From IMG/VR virus record IMGVR_UViG_3300033049_000163, positions 1 to 34,041 of that record: 34,041 nt of DNA, one strand, 5' to 3'. The notes beneath the pieces are model-generated. The model was not told the DNA's origin. It saw only the letters and a list, made by a program, of their open reading frames with translations, and ran no database searches. This DNA comes from a virus. The translations under genes were made by a program, and so were the position numbers. Shown here one piece after another: positions 3,165-21,593 of this stretch. Within the stretch, counting starts at the first letter, position 1. Each line of letters begins with the position of its first letter.

Positions 3165-3782
3165 ATGGATATTAAATTAGATGACAGCTCATCAAAAGCT
3201 AAACTTCAAAGGCTTAAAGATGCAAATCTAGATCACTTGAACGGTTCTAAAGTTATTGATATAAAAAAATATTCTTCAAAGTCTCGTCAAATTTCTGACA
3301 TCTCTAAAATCTTGTCATTTCAAGCAATAACTAATGCCTCAATCCCCTTAGTTTTAAACAAAATTGCTGCAGGTTTCCCTTCACCTGCCGAAGATTATAT
3401 TGATAAAACTATCGACATGAATGACCTTCTTATTTCAAATAAAGAAGCGACATTCATTGTTCAAGTTGAATCGCTTTCGATGAAAGATATCGGGATTGAT
3501 ATAAATGATTATTTAATTGTCGATAGAAGTATTCGCTCACAGCATCAAGATATTGTTATCGCATTCATTGACAATGATTTCACTGTAAAAAGAATGATGA
3601 TTACACAAAGAATGTCTCATGATGAATTGTTTGATATTTTTCATAATGAAAATGATCTTAGAAATTTGCCAGCTGTTTGGCTTAAGCCTGAAAATATAGA
3701 ATATAAACCTATCCTTCCCCGCAATGAACAAGAATTAGTAATCTGGGGTGTTGTCACCAAAGTTATTAAGAACTTCAAATGA
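3165..3782 (+). CDS. umuD: UmuD-like S24 autoprotease, long UmuDAb form
   Basis: LexA/UmuD-type Ser-Lys autoprotease. It is 205 residues, against ~139 for E. coli UmuD, with about 60 extra N-terminal residues like the Acinetobacter regulator UmuDAb. The self-cleavage bond is Ala69-Gly70 in AAGFPSPAEDY, the nucleophile is Ser105 in ESLSMKD and the general base is Lys142 in FTVKRMM. The spacings 70 to 105 and 105 to 142 equal those I recall for UmuDAb (84, 119, 156). RecA-stimulated cleavage would give a UmuD'-like form that supports UmuC, and the intact form may bind the operator just upstream. The stop overlaps the umuC start (ATGA), so the two are co-translated. Whether the N-terminal part truly binds DNA is inferred from the UmuDAb parallel. 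Confidence 0.9.
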   Translation: MDIKLDDSSSKAKLQRLKDANLDHLNGSKVIDIKKYSSKSRQISDISKILSFQAITNASIPLVLNKIAAGFPSPAEDYIDKTIDMNDLLISNKEATFIVQVESLSMKDIGIDINDYLIVDRSIRSQHQDIVIAFIDNDFTVKRMMITQRMSHDELFDIFHNENDLRNLPAVWLKPENIEYKPILPRNEQELVIWGVVTKVIKNFK

Positions 3783-5074
3783 AACATGAAGAAAAGATAT
3801 TTGCACTTATTGATATCAATAATTGCTATGTCTCGTGTGAACGCTTCTTTAATCCCAAGCTAAATAATGTCCCTGTTATAGTCTTATCAAATAACGATGG
3901 GTGTGCTGTAGCTCGCAGTAACGAAGCCAAGCAGATGGGCATCAAAATGGGCGTTCCACTCTTCCAGATTAAAGATGTTGTACAGAAAAATCATGTTCAA
4001 GTACTTTCAAGCAATTATGCAATTTACGCTGAAATGTCACGTAGATTTCATTCGATACTTGCAGGTTATGTCGCACCACATGAACAAGAAATCTATTCAA
4101 TTGACGAATGTTTTCTAGATCTGACAAGCTTTAAGAATAACTATAATTTAGTGGAATATTGCCAAGGTATGCGCGAACGCATTCAGGAGTGGATAGGATT
4201 GCCTGTGTCTATTGGAATAGGAAGATCAAAGACTGAAGCAAAAATCGCTAATCACATGGCGAAGAAAGGCAAACGTTTTAATGGGGTTTGTGATCTAGCA
4301 ACTATGGACCCGAAATATCGTGATTATTTTTGGTCGCTGGTTGAGGTGGGCGAAGTTTGGGGCGTAGGCAGAAAGCAGAATAAAAAATTGAATGATATGG
4401 GGATAAAAACTGTTTTAGATCTATCCAAAGCTAATCCACCTATCATGGGAAAAATGTTCACAGTCTGCATGCAAAGAACTGTCCTTGAGCTTCAAGGTAT
4501 CTCATGCATGCCCATCGATGACCAGCCAAAACCAAAACAACAGATCGTTGCTAGTCGGTCATTTGGTGTAAAAATAACAGAACTTCAAGATTTAAAGGAA
4601 GCAATGTCGAAGTATGTGCAGGATGCTGTAGGTCGATTAAGGAAAGAAAAACTATTGTGCGGTGTGATAACGGCTTTTGTTCAGTCCAACCCTTTTGATG
4701 CATCTGTGCCGTATTACAGCAAAGCTCAAACATACAAATTTGCTGAACCAACTGATTGTGTTCTTGATCTTGTTGAGGTTGCTTATTTGTTATTAGAGAA
4801 GATTTATAAACCAGGCATCAAGTACAAAAAATGTGGTGTGTTTTATTCAGATCTAATTCAAAAATCAAACCATATCCCCGACTTGCTTTCAGATCATCAA
4901 ACTAGAATTGAGAATGAAAACTTGATGCATGCCTATGAAGAAATACAGACAAAGTTTGGCAAAGCCAAGATCTCAGTAGGTCCGTGTTACTTCAAAGATC
5001 GTAAGTGGTCTATGAGTCGAGATATGTTGTCTAAGAATTATTTTACGAAGAATGGGATGATTAAAGTTAAGTGA
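3779..5074 (+). CDS. umuC: DNA polymerase V catalytic subunit UmuC (Y-family)
   Basis: Error-prone translesion polymerase that works with UmuD'2 and RecA. The palm motifs are clear: FALIDINNCYVSCERFF at the N terminus (metal-binding Asp12) and SIDECFLDL (Asp109, Glu110). The finger region SNNDGCAVARSNEAKQMGI is typical, as is the little-finger/C-terminal part with YKKCGVFYSDL. At 431 residues it is full length and intact. It overlaps umuD by four bases. In Acinetobacter, prophage umuDC copies can contribute to damage-induced mutagenesis in the host; that applies here only by homology. No clear intrinsic terminator follows the stop. Confidence 0.95.
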   Translation: MKHEEKIFALIDINNCYVSCERFFNPKLNNVPVIVLSNNDGCAVARSNEAKQMGIKMGVPLFQIKDVVQKNHVQVLSSNYAIYAEMSRRFHSILAGYVAPHEQEIYSIDECFLDLTSFKNNYNLVEYCQGMRERIQEWIGLPVSIGIGRSKTEAKIANHMAKKGKRFNGVCDLATMDPKYRDYFWSLVEVGEVWGVGRKQNKKLNDMGIKTVLDLSKANPPIMGKMFTVCMQRTVLELQGISCMPIDDQPKPKQQIVASRSFGVKITELQDLKEAMSKYVQDAVGRLRKEKLLCGVITAFVQSNPFDASVPYYSKAQTYKFAEPTDCVLDLVEVAYLLLEKIYKPGIKYKKCGVFYSDLIQKSNHIPDLLSDHQTRIENENLMHAYEEIQTKFGKAKISVGPCYFKDRKWSMSRDMLSKNYFTKNGMIKVK

Positions 5075-5094
5075 ATTTTAGATGGGGTGGGTTG

Positions 5095-5123
5095 TTGACT
5101 GTAAGTGATTAATTTTGCATTAT
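5095..5123 (+). promoter_or_regulatory. Possible sigma-70 promoter for the downstream membrane-protein gene
   Basis: TTGACT (5095-5100) and CATTAT (5118-5123) are separated by 17 bases in an AT-rich gap 29 bases upstream of the ATG at 5152. This would give the gene expression independent of umuDC. Confidence 0.35.
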
Positions 5124-5151
5124 TTGCATAATTTTAAATGAAAATGATTAA

Positions 5152-5964
5152 ATGAAACCAACAAAAGAAACTACAATTGCTATAAATACTATAGCCACAT
5201 TAGCTGTGGCAACATTTGTTGTCATGGGGGCAACTTTTATATTATTTTATTATCTAGATTCTGCTACCGGAATAAAAGATGCATGGTCAACAATTGCTAG
5301 TTTTTTTGGTGGTTTTGCAACTCTGACAGCAGCTTACATTGCATCTAAACTATTTAATGATTGGCGATTCGAAAAAGATCATGATACCAAGTCTACTTAT
5401 TTAAATAGTGCAATTTTTAAAATTTCTGAAATTCGCAGCAGTTTAAACCTTTGTAGAAGTAATGCAGCTAACTTAAAAAAAATAAACAATAATTTAATTA
5501 TTAAAAATGAATACCTTAATCATTTATCAATAAATCATCAAAAATTGCTTTTTCTTATGTATGCAGACTTAGCTGTAATAAGCAAACTCTTTAAAAACGA
5601 AAGTTTGATTATCCAATACAATAAATATGAAAAATATATAAATGTTTTAGATTTATTTAATCAAGATTTATTAAACATTTATGGAGCTTATTACAAATAT
5701 TATGTAAATAAAAACCTAACATTTAATATAAATGGTGAATATAATATATTTAGACCAATTTATAACACTAGCCATAATGATGCTACTTTTGTCATAAATC
5801 AAAATAATGTGTATAAATTTTTCAATAAAGATTTGGATAGAGTAATGGGAGATAAAAAAGACAAAATTACTTATTTAAATCATATTGAAGAATGTTTAGT
5901 AGTTCATGAGGAATTAATCAATTTATGTATTATTGAATTAAAAGCTAAAAAACAATATGAATGA
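5152..5964 (+). CDS. Two-helix membrane protein with a large helical cytoplasmic domain, unknown
   Basis: I do not recognise this 270-residue protein. Hydrophobic segments lie at about residues 13-36 (ATLAVATFVVMGATFILFYYL) and 45-63 (ASFFGGFATLTAAYIASKLF), joined by a short loop. About 200 residues follow that are rich in Asn, Lys, Ile and Tyr and predicted helical, probably cytoplasmic. It is even more AT-rich than the phage core genes, a sign of separate acquisition. It has its own candidate promoter. Immediately downstream, on the opposite strand, lies a remnant of a lysis gene, so the cargo was probably inserted into the lysis end of the phage. The topology matches many uncharacterised phage-borne membrane proteins; a superinfection or defence role would be inference. 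Confidence 0.7.
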   Translation: MKPTKETTIAINTIATLAVATFVVMGATFILFYYLDSATGIKDAWSTIASFFGGFATLTAAYIASKLFNDWRFEKDHDTKSTYLNSAIFKISEIRSSLNLCRSNAANLKKINNNLIIKNEYLNHLSINHQKLLFLMYADLAVISKLFKNESLIIQYNKYEKYINVLDLFNQDLLNIYGAYYKYYVNKNLTFNINGEYNIFRPIYNTSHNDATFVINQNNVYKFFNKDLDRVMGDKKDKITYLNHIEECLVVHEELINLCIIELKAKKQYE

Positions 5965-5968
5965 TCAC

Positions 5969-6106
5969 TCAATTAAGAGCCTTATTCTTCGCATCATTCA
6001 AAGCGCTACACTCGTTGTATTTAGCAACGGTATCAATGATCCATAGCGTGATTTCTTTGCCCTGCCCTGATTGAAGTTTGAGGAGTTTAGGGCAAGGTGG
6101 CATCAT
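5969..6106 (-). pseudogene. Rz1/o-spanin-like gene remnant
   Basis: On the minus strand, a frame ending with TGA at 5969-5971 reads MMPPCPKLLKL, then KEITLWIIDTVAKYNECSAL and ends NDAKNKAL. This looks like the C-terminal part of small Rz1-like lysis proteins of Acinetobacter phages, in which a Pro-rich PPCP stretch precedes a LWxxDTxxKYNxCS segment. The frame hits a stop just above 6122, and no lipoprotein signal peptide is left, so the N-terminal half is missing. An ATG at 6106 is available but has no obvious ribosome binding site. Its orientation matches the endolysin/holin genes further right, so it is probably the far end of the same lysis module. Confidence 0.45.
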
Positions 6107-6211
6107 GATATGAAAAAATATTTAAATTTTCCAATAAGCTGTATTAAGATAACTTTAGAAAAATTTAACTCATAAGTAATTCTATTTGGAACTAATGATA
6201 AGAGAAATCTG

Positions 6212-6610
6212 TTGAGAAACTATTATCACCACATAAAGGCTCAGTCTAGACTGTATCAAGTGATAGTCTATGGTTGTATTGCGCTCATCTCCATTAACTT
6301 CTTTATGAATGTATGGGGCTATAACGCTATACTAAAATATAAATTAAATAATCCTACAAATATTATTGAAACTTGTGCATATTTTAGAGGGGAAAGTAAA
6401 TCTAAAAATGGTTCAGGTTATTACCTTAATGTTGATAACTATATTTATGATACCCAAAGAATTCGTCAAAAAGCTTTTCCTTCTGGTTTAACATGGCGTG
6501 ACTTTTATGAATCTTTAGATAAACAGCCATCTAAGTGCCATAAGATAAAATATGTGCAACTTGATTCTATCTTATCGAAAAAGATTTTTATTTATGACTA
6601 TCAAAAGTAA
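6212..6610 (+). CDS. Single-pass membrane protein, unknown
   Basis: A 132-residue protein with one transmembrane segment at about residues 15-36 (YQVIVYGCIALISINFFMNV) and a probable periplasmic domain of ~95 residues. That domain carries two cysteines, Cys55 and Cys109, which could form a disulfide. The only suitable start is TTG at 6212, preceded by AAGAGA at a reasonable distance; no in-frame ATG exists until residue 32, after the membrane segment. I do not recognise the family. It sits between two minus-strand fragments of lysis genes, so it looks like inserted cargo rather than an original phage core gene. Confidence 0.55.
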   Translation: MRNYYHHIKAQSRLYQVIVYGCIALISINFFMNVWGYNAILKYKLNNPTNIIETCAYFRGESKSKNGSGYYLNVDNYIYDTQRIRQKAFPSGLTWRDFYESLDKQPSKCHKIKYVQLDSILSKKIFIYDYQK

Positions 6611-6690
6611 TTATAAACCATTAAATTAAGAGTGCTTTTTGCTATTTAATATGTAATGGGGATTATGCGAATTCGCTCTCACTCAGAGGG

Positions 6691-6861
6691 CTATGACTCA
6701 CTTAATCTTTCTGCATCAGCTGCGTGTCCATCAGCGGCTTTTGCCACTCTTTGATATTCTGTGATGCACTTTTCGAGTTTTTCACTGCTTTTATTGGTGG
6801 TTGGTATTTTTCTTGTCTTAACTGGAGATTGGAGCAAGTAGAAATTTGGATAGGAAAATTT
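6691..6861 (-). pseudogene. Rz/i-spanin-like (DUF2514-type) C-terminal remnant
   Basis: A minus-strand frame ending with TAG at 6691-6693 reads TTNKSSEKLEKCITEYQ and then RVAKAADGHAADAERLSES. The pattern of Cys, EYQxVAxxAD and HAADxxRL is typical of the C-terminal ends of Rz-like i-spanins (DUF2514 and relatives). Upstream the frame loses similarity around 6800 and meets a stop at 6862-6864. The membrane anchor and most of the coiled coil are therefore gone. With the remnant at 5969-6106 it brackets the inserted gene at 6212-6610, and it lies on the same strand as the intact endolysin and holin genes. Confidence 0.5.
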
Positions 6862-7003
6862 TTATTAAAAAAATATCTAATTAATCCAAAGTATTACTTA
6901 ATAATATTGAATTATTTTTTAAAAATTCAAACATTTAATTTATCATTTAAAGATGTTATCTTTGTTCCCAATATTTACTTAAAAATCAATGTTGCAGAAT
7001 CAT

Positions 7004-7588
7004 ATGTTTAGAGAAGGAAAAATTACGACCTATAATGAGAATAAAGGTTATGGTTTCATCCAACTTGAAGATCATGAGAAAGATTTATTTTTTCATATCA
7101 GTGATTTTCCAAACAAGCAATTCCCTCCAAGAATCGGAGAAAGATTAAAATTTCGTATAGTTAGTGAAAACGGAAGAATAAAAGCAGAAAATATTATACG
7201 TTTAGATTTTAAGATCGAAGAGAAACAAAGTCCAATCTATAGTAAACCTAAAACTCGGTCACAATATAATAAGAGAAAACCGCAAGAAAAGAGTTTTAAT
7301 TTACTTAAAATTTTTATTGGTGTATTTATATTCTCCGTATTTCTAGCGGTTTTAATACCCTTTTTATCAGGAATATATAAAAGAGAGAACTTAAAAAGAC
7401 AACCCGTTGAACTTGTTGAAAGAACCTCATCTACTACAGCCAATTCAGTTCCACAATATCGTTGTGATGGACGAGTATACTGTAGTGAAATGAAATCATA
7501 TGAGGAGGCAGTATTTTTTATAAATAATTGCCCAGGAACAAAAATGGATGGTGATGGAGATGGAATCCCATGCGAAAGTCAATTCTGA
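7004..7588 (+). CDS. Cold-shock domain, membrane anchor and Excalibur domain fusion protein
   Basis: Three parts are visible in 194 residues. Residues 1-67 are a cold-shock (OB-fold) domain with RNP1-like KGYGFI (14-19) and RNP2-like DLFFHIS (27-33), expected to bind single-stranded nucleic acid. A Lys/Arg-rich linker leads to one transmembrane helix at about 100-122. The C-terminal ~43 residues are an Excalibur-type calcium-binding domain with Cys154, Cys160, Cys176, Cys190 and the acidic loop DGDGDGIPCE. Orientation should put the cold-shock domain in the cytoplasm and Excalibur outside. An ATG at 6989 is also in frame, but MFREGKITTYN is the usual family start, so I prefer 7004. The upstream 6862-7003 is AT-rich and holds a palindrome (TTGAATT at 6907-6913, AATTCAA at 6924-6930). 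The gene converges on the endolysin gene through a shared terminator. Confidence 0.85.
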   Translation: MFREGKITTYNENKGYGFIQLEDHEKDLFFHISDFPNKQFPPRIGERLKFRIVSENGRIKAENIIRLDFKIEEKQSPIYSKPKTRSQYNKRKPQEKSFNLLKIFIGVFIFSVFLAVLIPFLSGIYKRENLKRQPVELVERTSSTTANSVPQYRCDGRVYCSEMKSYEEAVFFINNCPGTKMDGDGDGIPCESQF

Positions 7589-7624
7589 TGAATCACCATA
7601 AAATTTAATTATAGTAACGTTGTA

Positions 7625-7646
7625 AAAAGCCCTTTAAAGGGCTTTT
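7625..7646. terminator. Bidirectional intrinsic terminator between convergent genes
   Basis: AAAAGCCC, a short TTTAAA centre and GGGCTTTT form a perfect palindrome with A and T runs on both sides. It can terminate the + strand cold-shock/excalibur gene and the - strand late operon after the endolysin. Confidence 0.85.
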
Positions 7647-7721
7647 ACGCAAATACCCACACTAACATTTGTATTTATCGTTTGGGCTGTACAACTTGAG
7701 ATTAACAAACAGATCAATAAA

Positions 7722-8237
7722 CTAATTATCTTGAGCTGCATATTTTAGATTCTCGGCGACTCGGTTAGTCCACCCTTTACCGTAGGTTACCCAAGTTTTT
7801 AAGGATGTATAAAAACTTAAACGCTCAGAAGCCAACAGCAATAACACGTCATTCACATCTTTGGCTTTTACTGCAGCAATTGTTTTAGGTCCAATAATTC
7901 CATCATCGGAAACACCAACAGCTTGTTGTAGCTCTTTAATTGCTCGACTTTTCCCAGCATTTACAGCAAAGTCCCACAATTGAAAAACAATCGCTGGGTG
8001 TAATTGATCAGCCCCTAATTTATCCCACCAATCATTTCGATAAATTTCTTTTGCTTGTGTTAATGTTAAATTCTTAATGTCTAAATTTGGGTATGTATTG
8101 GCAGCAATACCATATTTAGTGCCTTTAAAAATCCCCTTTCCAACTTTTCCACCCGTCCAATTACCAGGATCATTTTGATCTGTAGAATAACCACCTTCAT
8201 GACCAATTAAACGCTCAAATGCTTTTTCAAAATTCAT
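7722..8237 (-). CDS. Endolysin, glycoside hydrolase family 108 (N-acetylmuramidase)
   Basis: Phage lysozyme that cleaves the glycan backbone of peptidoglycan at the end of the lytic cycle. The GH108 signature FERLIGHEGGYSTDQNDPGNWTGG is at the N terminus; catalytic Glu14 sits in GHEGGY. The C-terminal part (AVGVSDDGIIGPKTIAAV) is the small peptidoglycan-binding domain usual for this family. Length (171 residues) is normal. There is no signal peptide, so export depends on the holin. Its start overlaps the holin stop by four bases (ATGA), so the two are translationally coupled. This is the last intact gene of the leftward late operon. Confidence 0.93.
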   Translation of the reverse strand: MNFEKAFERLIGHEGGYSTDQNDPGNWTGGKVGKGIFKGTKYGIAANTYPNLDIKNLTLTQAKEIYRNDWWDKLGADQLHPAIVFQLWDFAVNAGKSRAIKELQQAVGVSDDGIIGPKTIAAVKAKDVNDVLLLLASERLSFYTSLKTWVTYGKGWTNRVAENLKYAAQDN

Positions 8238-8605
8238 TTAAATATTGCTCCAAATGCCTCTTTAACTTCCGAGATAATTTCATTAAAAGATTTGCCTTTA
8301 AGTAGCTGCACTGACTGGTAAGCAATACCAATACAAAGCATTCCAAAAATGGCAAAAATCAACATGACAAATCCCTGTGCCATGTGTGTGTAGTGGGTTA
8401 AGTCGTAATATTCAATAAATGCAGATCCACCATATAAGCTAATGGCCACACTAAAAGTGAACTTCATAATGACGCCCATGGTGATTTTGATACGCCCTTG
8501 TGTGTCGATATCCCCTGATAATGTCAGTGCAAAAATAGCCCCAATTACCGCAGCCATAATTTTAAAAAGCCATGGTAAGCCTTTGATAGAAATTGGATCG
8601 TTCAC
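8234..8605 (-). CDS. Holin-like membrane protein with three helices
   Basis: A 123-residue protein with three hydrophobic segments at about residues 13-31, 42-62 and 75-98 and a charged C-terminal tail, directly upstream of the endolysin. This is the size, topology and position expected of a class I-type holin, which forms membrane lesions that release the endolysin. The longest open frame begins at 8671, but that would translate through the terminator hairpin at 8630-8651. The GTG at 8605 follows an excellent AGGGGA ribosome binding site, so I use it. The family assignment is by topology and context; I do not recognise a named holin family. Confidence 0.75.
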   Translation of the reverse strand: MNDPISIKGLPWLFKIMAAVIGAIFALTLSGDIDTQGRIKITMGVIMKFTFSVAISLYGGSAFIEYYDLTHYTHMAQGFVMLIFAIFGMLCIGIAYQSVQLLKGKSFNEIISEVKEAFGAIFK

Positions 8606-8629
8606 AGTGTTCCCCTGATTTTTGGCAAT

Positions 8630-8651
8630 AAAAAAGCACCCAGTTAGGTGC
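8630..8651 (-). terminator. Intrinsic terminator between tail and lysis genes
   Basis: On the minus strand GCACC, a TAACTGG loop region and GGTGC are followed by six T. It lies after the 76-aa gene and 25 bases before the holin GTG, so it separates tail and lysis genes and could tune lysis expression unless late transcription is antiterminated. Confidence 0.75.
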
Positions 8652-8667
8652 CTGTATTTGGTTAATT

Positions 8668-8898
8668 TCATACTTCTATCTGAACCACAGTGCCCTCTGG
8701 TGCAGATCTTTTGATTTCATTATTTGAGATAAATACTCGGTCACCAGTTTTGTATTCAACTGAACTGGTGCACATAACTAAGCCTGAATTATCCGAAACC
8801 AAGACTTTGTAATTTGGATGATTTGCTGAGGTAATCACACCTACAAATTCGGGATTTTGTGGCAATAATGCTAAAAATCTTGTGTAAATATTACTCAT
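8668..8898 (-). CDS. Small conserved-looking protein after the tail-tip gene, unknown
   Basis: A 76-residue soluble protein, probably beta-rich (GVITSANHPNYKVLVSDNSGLVMC, then GDRVFISNNEIKR). Its start overlaps the end of the 671-aa tail gene by eight bases, so it is translated with the tail genes. The GxVxS/VLVSDNSG/GDRVFI pattern suggests a small barrel similar to SH3- or OB-like baseplate accessory domains, but I do not recognise the family. A terminator follows it directly. Confidence 0.6.
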   Translation of the reverse strand: MSNIYTRFLALLPQNPEFVGVITSANHPNYKVLVSDNSGLVMCTSSVEYKTGDRVFISNNEIKRSAPEGTVVQIEV

Positions 8899-20727: not shown

Positions 20728-21306
20728 TCAACAATAATCAATTAATGCTGTCGCATTCCTTTGGTGATCAGACCCCATACTTATAAAAAGATTAGAAACA
20801 TCTTCATTCTTCTGCATAAATTGTAAAAATCCATTGATTGAAAAATTATAGGATTTTAATAACTCTTGCTTCATCTTTGCTTCACAATCAGATTTAGTTA
20901 CATGGCCTTCCAAATCCCGTTTAATTTGTTGCATATCTTTAACCGGCTGAGATAAAGCGACCCTAGATGTAGATCCAGCCACAGTAAACGCATCACTCCA
21001 TCGTCCAGCCAAATCAACATAGAATTTCTTTTCAGCTATAGTTATTTTTGGAGATTCGACAACTTTTTTAGCCTCCTGGTAGTCCATCATGTATTTGCTT
21101 TGAAGCTCTTTGATCCTAATGTCCGTTGCTTCTTTTAATTCTTTTTTAGCAAACTCTTGATTTGCAATTGCTTGAGCATCAATTAACTTTTGTTTCTGCT
21201 CAACTTCAGCCTGCTTTAATCGAGCCATATCTTCTTTATTGCTTTTATTGATGAAATAACCAATCAATAAAACAATAACAATGAGAGCACCTACAAGGTA
21301 TTTCAC
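20728..21306 (-). CDS. Membrane-anchored coiled-coil protein (moron gene 2), unknown
   Basis: A 192-residue protein with one N-terminal transmembrane helix (residues ~3-21, LVGALIVIVLLIGYF), then a charged coiled coil (NKEDMARLKQAEVEQKQKLIDAQ through DIRIKELQSKYM). A compact domain with two cysteines follows (SDCEAKM; final residue Cys). A TTG at 21321 is open, but the GTG at 21306 is eight bases from GGGAG and directly follows the upstream stop, so I choose it. With the secreted protein upstream it forms a unit with its own promoter and terminators. The anchored coiled coil could resemble an i-spanin, but the size and position away from the lysis genes argue against that; an envelope-modifying or exclusion role is possible. 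Confidence 0.6.
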   Translation of the reverse strand: MKYLVGALIVIVLLIGYFINKSNKEDMARLKQAEVEQKQKLIDAQAIANQEFAKKELKEATDIRIKELQSKYMMDYQEAKKVVESPKITIAEKKFYVDLAGRWSDAFTVAGSTSRVALSQPVKDMQQIKRDLEGHVTKSDCEAKMKQELLKSYNFSINGFLQFMQKNEDVSNLFISMGSDHQRNATALIDYC

Positions 21307-21308
21307 AA

Positions 21309-21593
21309 TCAACGCTCCCAAACAATTTTAGTTATAACTCCACCAATTACAGTCAAAGTATATCTCACACCATCTATCGTATAGCGGTAATCTGTTGCAA
21401 AAGCGATACGCCCATTAGCATCCCTTGTTTTGTATTCATAAGAAGATTCAGGATTACCTAATGTTTGAATCATATTGCCTTGAGAATCACCTTTACTCAC
21501 AAAACTATTTGATGATCTAACACTTTGTGCTTCAGTAGCAGCATATATATTGGTAGAAGCAAAAAATAAAAAAGCTAAAAATAATTTTTTCAT
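21309..21593 (-). CDS. Secreted small protein (moron gene 1), unknown
   Basis: A 94-residue protein with a clear Sec signal peptide (MKKLFLAFLFFASTNIYA, cleavage after AYA-type IYA at ~18). The mature domain contains FVSKGDSQGNMIQTLGNPESSYEYKTRDANGRIAFATDYRYTIDG. The G-D-S..LGNP pattern and the closing VITKIVWER resemble DUF2845/SmpA-OmlA-like small periplasmic beta proteins, in which a helix ending LGxP packs on a sheet. GAGGGG lies six bases before the ATG, and a promoter is visible 24 bases upstream. Two bases separate its stop from the GTG of the next gene. The periplasmic location suggests an effect on the host envelope; the role is unknown. Confidence 0.65.
   Translation of the reverse strand: MKKLFLAFLFFASTNIYAATEAQSVRSSNSFVSKGDSQGNMIQTLGNPESSYEYKTRDANGRIAFATDYRYTIDGVRYTLTVIGGVITKIVWER

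Follow-up and report, generated by a model that had tools for sequence, protein, structure and literature searches.

A conserved mini-lipoprotein behind the endolysin as a candidate for the outer-membrane step of lysis in an Acinetobacter phage that carries remnants of two spanin systems

We analysed a viral record of 34,041 bases (hereafter the window), in which the late genes on the minus strand end with a putative holin and a GH108/PG_binding_3 endolysin, beyond which cargo genes on the plus strand extend as far as the integrase (476-1699). The putative holin (8234-8671, minus strand; phrog_16485) is listed with 145 aa, has membrane helices by hydropathy and may have its true start at a GTG at 8605. 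Directly behind the endolysin (7722-8237, minus strand, 171 aa) lies an ORF that had been missed in the original prediction for this locus: a conserved lipoprotein of 35 aa (7634-7741, minus strand; MQLKIISLLICLLISS-C-TAQTINTNVSVGICVKAL), whose start falls within the 3' end of the endolysin gene and which we consider here, under the name mini-lipoprotein, as a candidate outer-membrane disruption gene. Its stop codon is spanned by a perfect 22-bp inverted repeat (7625-7646), detected as a self-match of the reverse strand and probably terminator-like in nature.

Between this point and the integrase, cargo genes alternate with minus-strand fragments of spanin genes, referred to below as scars. 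A cargo protein of 199 aa with a cold-shock domain, a membrane helix and an Excalibur domain (6989-7588, plus strand) is followed by scar 1, which can be read in two frames (scar 1a, 6688-6834; scar 1b, 6705-6797; both minus strand), by a single-pass membrane protein of 132 aa assigned to no family (6212-6610, plus strand), by scar 2 (5969-6106, minus strand) and by an N-terminal membrane protein of 270 aa with a weak match to phrog_17209 (5152-5964, plus strand). The oppositely oriented cargo genes are thus located where the original prediction had described them. The same zone holds UmuD-like and UmuC-like genes (3165-5074, plus strand), and UmuC-like genes occupy it in several relatives as well. 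For defence functions of the cargo genes we obtained only the cold-shock-domain match and weak hits, and Rfam and tRNA scans of the window returned no matches.

The mini-lipoprotein consists of a signal peptide with a hydrophobic stretch, a lipobox that by motif reads ISSC or LSGC in the aligned family, and a mature tail of about 19-21 residues. The consensus of the mature part is C-[T]-[A]-[H]-[ST]-I-x-x-x-V-x-V-x-[IV]-C-V, with an alternating V-x-V-x-I-C-V pattern and a near-invariant second cysteine. Across 65 thinned sequences, pN/pS was 0.26 in frame versus 1.40 and 2.19 in the other two frames, a ratio as low as the in-frame value was reached in none of 300 column shuffles, and entropy by codon position (0.52, 0.35 and 1.38) was concentrated at third positions. 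These statistics identify the mini-lipoprotein as a conserved coding gene under strong purifying selection. They also bear on the idea that the short ORF makes no protein and has arisen by chance within a terminator or untranslated region that is itself conserved, an idea suggested by the perfect 22-bp inverted repeat over the stop codon and by the annotators of TRS1, who placed a terminator at the same position; for the 17 codons tested, however, it is excluded by the codon-position statistics, and we give it next to no credence. AlphaFold modelled only the signal helix of the 35-mer (pLDDT 59). When compared with o-spanin families, the protein had its best PHROG match at E 0.025, over the signal peptide and the start of the tail, and none of 24 family members matched any family better than E 0.008.

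A profile-guided scan confirmed relatives of the mini-lipoprotein in at least 525 viral contigs. Among the 84,980 species genomes of GTDB all 19 hits were in Acinetobacter, and sampling across the order yielded a single match in 390 genomes, the Acinetobacter centre itself. We take the window to be of Acinetobacter type; all relatives of the mini-lipoprotein in genomes are from this genus. The gene is unannotated in most of the deposited records examined, while phi1_092021 carries it as a hypothetical protein. The lipoprotein of Acibel004 (Kongari) was considered as a further member of the family and set aside, the Acibel004 genome containing no match.

Retention of the gene was counted in the 53 endolysin relatives with downstream sequence among loci L001-L055. 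The mini-lipoprotein is intact in 38 of these, has an altered tail in 3, lacks a start in 2 and is absent or truncated beyond recognition in the remaining 10, one of which (L054) has its own spanin pair. About a fifth of the relatives therefore lack or have lost the gene, and some prophages, possibly decayed, do without it. In L029, L032, L042, L045, L046, L048, L051 and L053 cargo or other genes follow shortly behind the endolysin and the mini-lipoprotein is missing or truncated; the sequence read of these loci contained no known spanin, and they represent either decayed prophages or yet another solution. Second, often partial, copies occur at the same locus in L026 (8629-8715), L047 (6694-6771), L263 (6911-7159) and L269 (7997-8086), and are possibly scars or parts of a neighbouring prophage. 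Among the more distant endolysin relatives (L062-L067), L062 encodes behind its endolysin a lipoprotein of 75 aa and a short membrane protein, which look like another unannotated spanin arrangement.

The association of the mini-lipoprotein with the endolysin extends across endolysin types. In the 80 loci fetched by the mini-lipoprotein itself (L101-L180), the gene lies directly behind at least three unrelated groups of endolysins, which are of the GH108, GH19-like and GH24 types and show no BLAST similarity from one group to another; a gene other than an endolysin intervenes in 4 loci. It follows GH24 enzymes in TRS1, Piluca and YMC-13-01-C62 and a different lysozyme in Brutus, and within Obolenskvirus (LZ35, YMC-13-01-C62 and Brutus) the endolysins differ while the mature mini-lipoprotein is nearly the same. 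The Brutus copy would need another start codon, because the stretch read contains no in-frame ATG. Taken at the level of gene order, these observations place the mini-lipoprotein in the lysis module.

Both scars proved to be homologues of spanins, as had been predicted for two minus-strand fragments in this region. The ORF at 6691-6837 (minus strand) matches positions 127-161 of the 169 in phrog_5777 (E 1.3e-10), and the ORF at 5969-6106 (minus strand) matches positions 35-79 of the 86 in phrog_2425 (E 2.1e-10); no further match to either family was found in the whole record. Since the matches begin at positions 127 and 35, the predicted loss of the N-terminal anchors is borne out, and upstream of the scars neither a membrane anchor (expected of an i-spanin) nor a lipobox (expected of an o-spanin) was found in any frame. 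A tblastn search of deposited phages with the 6691-6837 fragment gave no match, and it was PHROGs, together with whole genomes of Acinetobacter, that led to the family of scar 1. In these genomes, intact phrog_5777 genes code for i-spanins that are 158-176 aa long and have a membrane helix at the N terminus; the gene embeds a lipoprotein o-spanin of 74 aa in another frame and in most loci read overlaps the end of the endolysin gene. This arrangement is a lambda-type embedded spanin pair.

The original prediction had treated the two fragments as the pieces of one broken Rz/Rz1 pair, a reading that we dropped. Scar 1 alone holds both C termini of an embedded pair: the C-terminal 49 residues of the i-spanin (Rz) at 6834-6688 (45% identity, E 2.7e-9) and, in the other frame, the last 31 residues of its embedded o-spanin at 6797-6705 (61% identity over 31 aa, E 1.8e-8). 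Scar 2 represents the C-terminal end of an o-spanin of phrog_2425 and resembles that of the o-spanin of fLi-Aba02, whose intact pair is of the overlapped type; its family was found in none of the 12 phrog_5777 loci from Acinetobacter genomes. Because scar 2 thus belongs to a separate, overlapped-type family that is absent from these twelve loci, the similarities identify the two scars as remnants of two different spanin systems. Elsewhere in Acinetobacter the pairs of both families are intact and lie close behind the endolysin, whereas in the window only their C-terminal parts are left, truncated and displaced by cargo. The scars are also relics rather than conserved small genes, the latter having been named as an outcome against the original prediction, because their homologues are degenerate, with a stop codon in L004 and no start codon in L003. 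About a dozen places in Acinetobacter genomes hold only the C-terminal part of phrog_5777 (starting at positions 94-140 and continuing nearly always to about 164), which indicates that loss of the 5' part of this Rz gene is recurrent.

Nucleotide comparison with relatives, proposed earlier as a way of locating the cargo boundaries, put the boundary common to most of them not within a spanin gene but at 7624-7638, the stop of the mini-lipoprotein gene, where their similarity to the window stops. In L004 and L007 it continues as one block through the cold-shock/Excalibur gene (6989-7588) to the end of scar 1. The other relatives share smaller parts of the cargo zone: in L005 these are 6670-6745 and, besides, a stretch of the UmuC-like gene; in L003 only scar 2 is shared (5975-6094); and in L018 the shared part is 4900-6058, comprising the 5152-5964 gene and part of scar 2. 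Another relative, L292, equals the window over 6305-6787 at 95% identity, within the block formed by scar 1 and the 6212-6610 cargo gene. Beyond this common stretch its lysis end differs from that of the window and consists of a GH19-like endolysin and a split Rz gene (L292 positions 1-540 and 1290-2172): the N-terminal half of Rz, with an in-frame stop in the membrane helix, is followed by a cargo gene of 184 aa, by the C-terminal half of Rz in both frames and then by the 6212-6610 gene. Because the Rz gene of L292 is split by this 184-aa cargo gene, insertion of cargo into Rz is directly visible in a relative. That part of the original prediction in which cargo broke up spanin genes is accordingly upheld by L292, while the part that derived both fragments from one Rz/Rz1 pair is not. 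The piece ahead of the Rz C terminus in L292 has the sequence MLPCPKLLKLE and so resembles the start of scar 2; the two spanin types may have recombined here into a chimeric junction.

To judge whether spanins and the mini-lipoprotein replace each other, we used loci that had been fetched through either gene, for the most part with 3-6 kb of sequence, and screened them with models of the two spanin families. Of 80 loci in which the phrog_2425 o-spanin is intact, none contained the mini-lipoprotein, and neither did any of the 12 phrog_5777 loci from Acinetobacter genomes. Conversely, in loci bearing the mini-lipoprotein, matches to the two spanin families are limited to scars (the window, L003, L004, L007 and L005, the last assigned by nucleotide match) or to L277, in which an intact Rz/Rz1 pair is followed by a mini-lipoprotein copy without a start and most of its signal peptide. 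In L295 an intact Rz/Rz1 pair is followed by only the last residues of the mini-lipoprotein. One record of 76.7 kb contains an intact mini-lipoprotein and an Rz1 locus about 41 kb apart, and probably represents two prophages. No sampled locus holds both an intact mini-lipoprotein and an intact spanin pair. Across the loci sampled in this way, then, the mini-lipoprotein replaces spanins in position, occupying the same slot as Rz/Rz1.

These observations can be set against two readings in which the mini-lipoprotein does not perform the outer-membrane step. Small phage outer-membrane lipoproteins with superinfection-exclusion or conversion roles exist, such as the T5 Llp and Cor proteins, and the mini-lipoprotein could be one of these, present in a late operon by chance. 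The confinement of the gene to hosts of one genus would fit such a function outside lysis; nevertheless, the gene follows the endolysin whatever the endolysin type, strictly lytic Obolenskvirus included, and it and the spanins substitute for each other in the slot, which together make this explanation quite unlikely. The other reading is that of the original prediction, in which the outer-membrane step has been lost and the phage lyses poorly, or relies on its endolysin or on a cargo membrane protein. Both recognised spanins are indeed truncated, some relatives also lack the mini-lipoprotein, and endolysin-mediated damage to the outer membrane has been proposed for Acinetobacter phages. However, the copy of the mini-lipoprotein in the window is intact, and the gene shows purifying selection in many phages. 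Conservation is lacking for the cargo membrane proteins: relatives carry the genes at 6212-6610 and 5152-5964 rarely or variably, and a pattern scan for relatives of 5152-5964 found none. The conserved lipoprotein is thus a far better candidate for this task, and we regard loss of the step as improbable.

The reading that we prefer, with a probability of roughly 0.6, is that the mini-lipoprotein is an outer-membrane disruptor that replaces Rz/Rz1, and that the two spanin fragments are scars of displaced, older spanins. In a cassette ordered holin, GH108 endolysin, mini-lipoprotein, the last product would be exported and, as its motif predicts, lipidated at Cys17, with the threonine at +2 predicting an outer-membrane location for the tail of about 19 residues. 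Once the endolysin has removed the peptidoglycan, the accumulated lipopeptide would most likely disrupt the outer membrane, the job done elsewhere by Rz/Rz1; the second cysteine may perhaps serve to form disulfide-linked dimers. The scars would then be seams of older two-component spanins between blocks of cargo that entered, or were exchanged in, the region from the lysis genes to the integrase. Replacement of the lysis end may have left behind one layer at a time, made up of a scar and the cargo on its distal side.

The closest competitor is an ordinary two-component spanin with separated genes, in which the mini-lipoprotein is an unusually short o-spanin whose partner is an unlinked phage i-spanin or a host inner-membrane protein. 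Its lipobox, the cysteine near its C terminus and its position behind the endolysin are all o-spanin-like, and Kongari et al. list 31 genomes that have a lipoprotein and no linked i-spanin (PMC6139136). A spanin mechanism would need such a partner, because the tail, at about 19 residues, is too short to bridge the periplasm and lacks a membrane helix at its C terminus; it is also below the expected length, the smallest two-component spanins surveyed totalling 62 periplasmic residues. No linked i-spanin (type II membrane protein) is adjacent to the mini-lipoprotein, and when the window was compared with YMC-13-01-C62, TRS1 and Piluca, the four shared no homologous membrane protein. The window offers a single unlinked type II candidate, a 197-aa protein with an N-terminal membrane helix and no PHROG family, encoded between tail genes (20728-21321, minus strand); it was dropped as a general partner, since a related protein occurs in just 1 of the 50 relatives' records. 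Because the tail is short and helix-less and no shared or conserved membrane-protein partner was found in these comparisons, we favour, with moderate confidence, a stand-alone outer-membrane lipopeptide, and consider the short o-spanin a less likely though serious alternative.

Compared with known systems, the mini-lipoprotein resembles lambda Rz1 and other o-spanins in being a small lipobox lipoprotein behind the endolysin that overlaps the upstream gene and has a cysteine besides the lipidated one. It differs from them in its mature part (about 19-21 residues versus 40 in Rz1), which has no proline-rich region, in having no overlapping or adjacent i-spanin and in showing no detectable homology beyond the signal peptide. 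With unimolecular spanins such as T1 gp11 it shares the presence of a single lipoprotein gene in the spanin slot, but it has no C-terminal transmembrane helix and is far too short to span the periplasm, the two features by which that class is recognised. The disruptin of coliphage phiKT, a phage without spanins, is a small cationic, non-lipidated peptide proposed to replace spanins at the outer-membrane step; both proteins are small, proposed spanin replacements, whereas the mini-lipoprotein is a lipoprotein with a nearly neutral tail. The colicin lysis (bacteriocin release) lipoproteins, plasmid-borne beside colicin genes, are likewise very small, expressed late and outer-membrane-perturbing, the last property being proposed for the mini-lipoprotein. 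We know of no sequence similarity between the two.

A comparison of 134 Acinetobacter phages surprisingly found no spanins, and its authors suggested that the outer membrane is passed in some unknown way (PMC8878043). Absence of spanins has been reported explicitly for Obolenskvirus, including Brutus and Scipio (PMC10888812), as well as for YMC-13-01-C62 (PMC6139136) and Piluca (PMC9022569), and we find the mini-lipoprotein in all four of these phages. While spanin fragments on their own amount to ordinary phage mosaicism, the scars illustrate a turnover of the spanin slot in which earlier occupants can still be recognised, and the interest of the locus lies in the overlooked gene that adjoins them. 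For phages of the "no spanin" reports, the mini-lipoprotein offers a concrete candidate that is widespread and for the most part unannotated. If it acts on the outer membrane, it would be among the smallest lysis proteins that do so, and it is, on the sequence evidence, the best candidate for the outer-membrane step in these supposedly "spanin-less" Acinetobacter phages.
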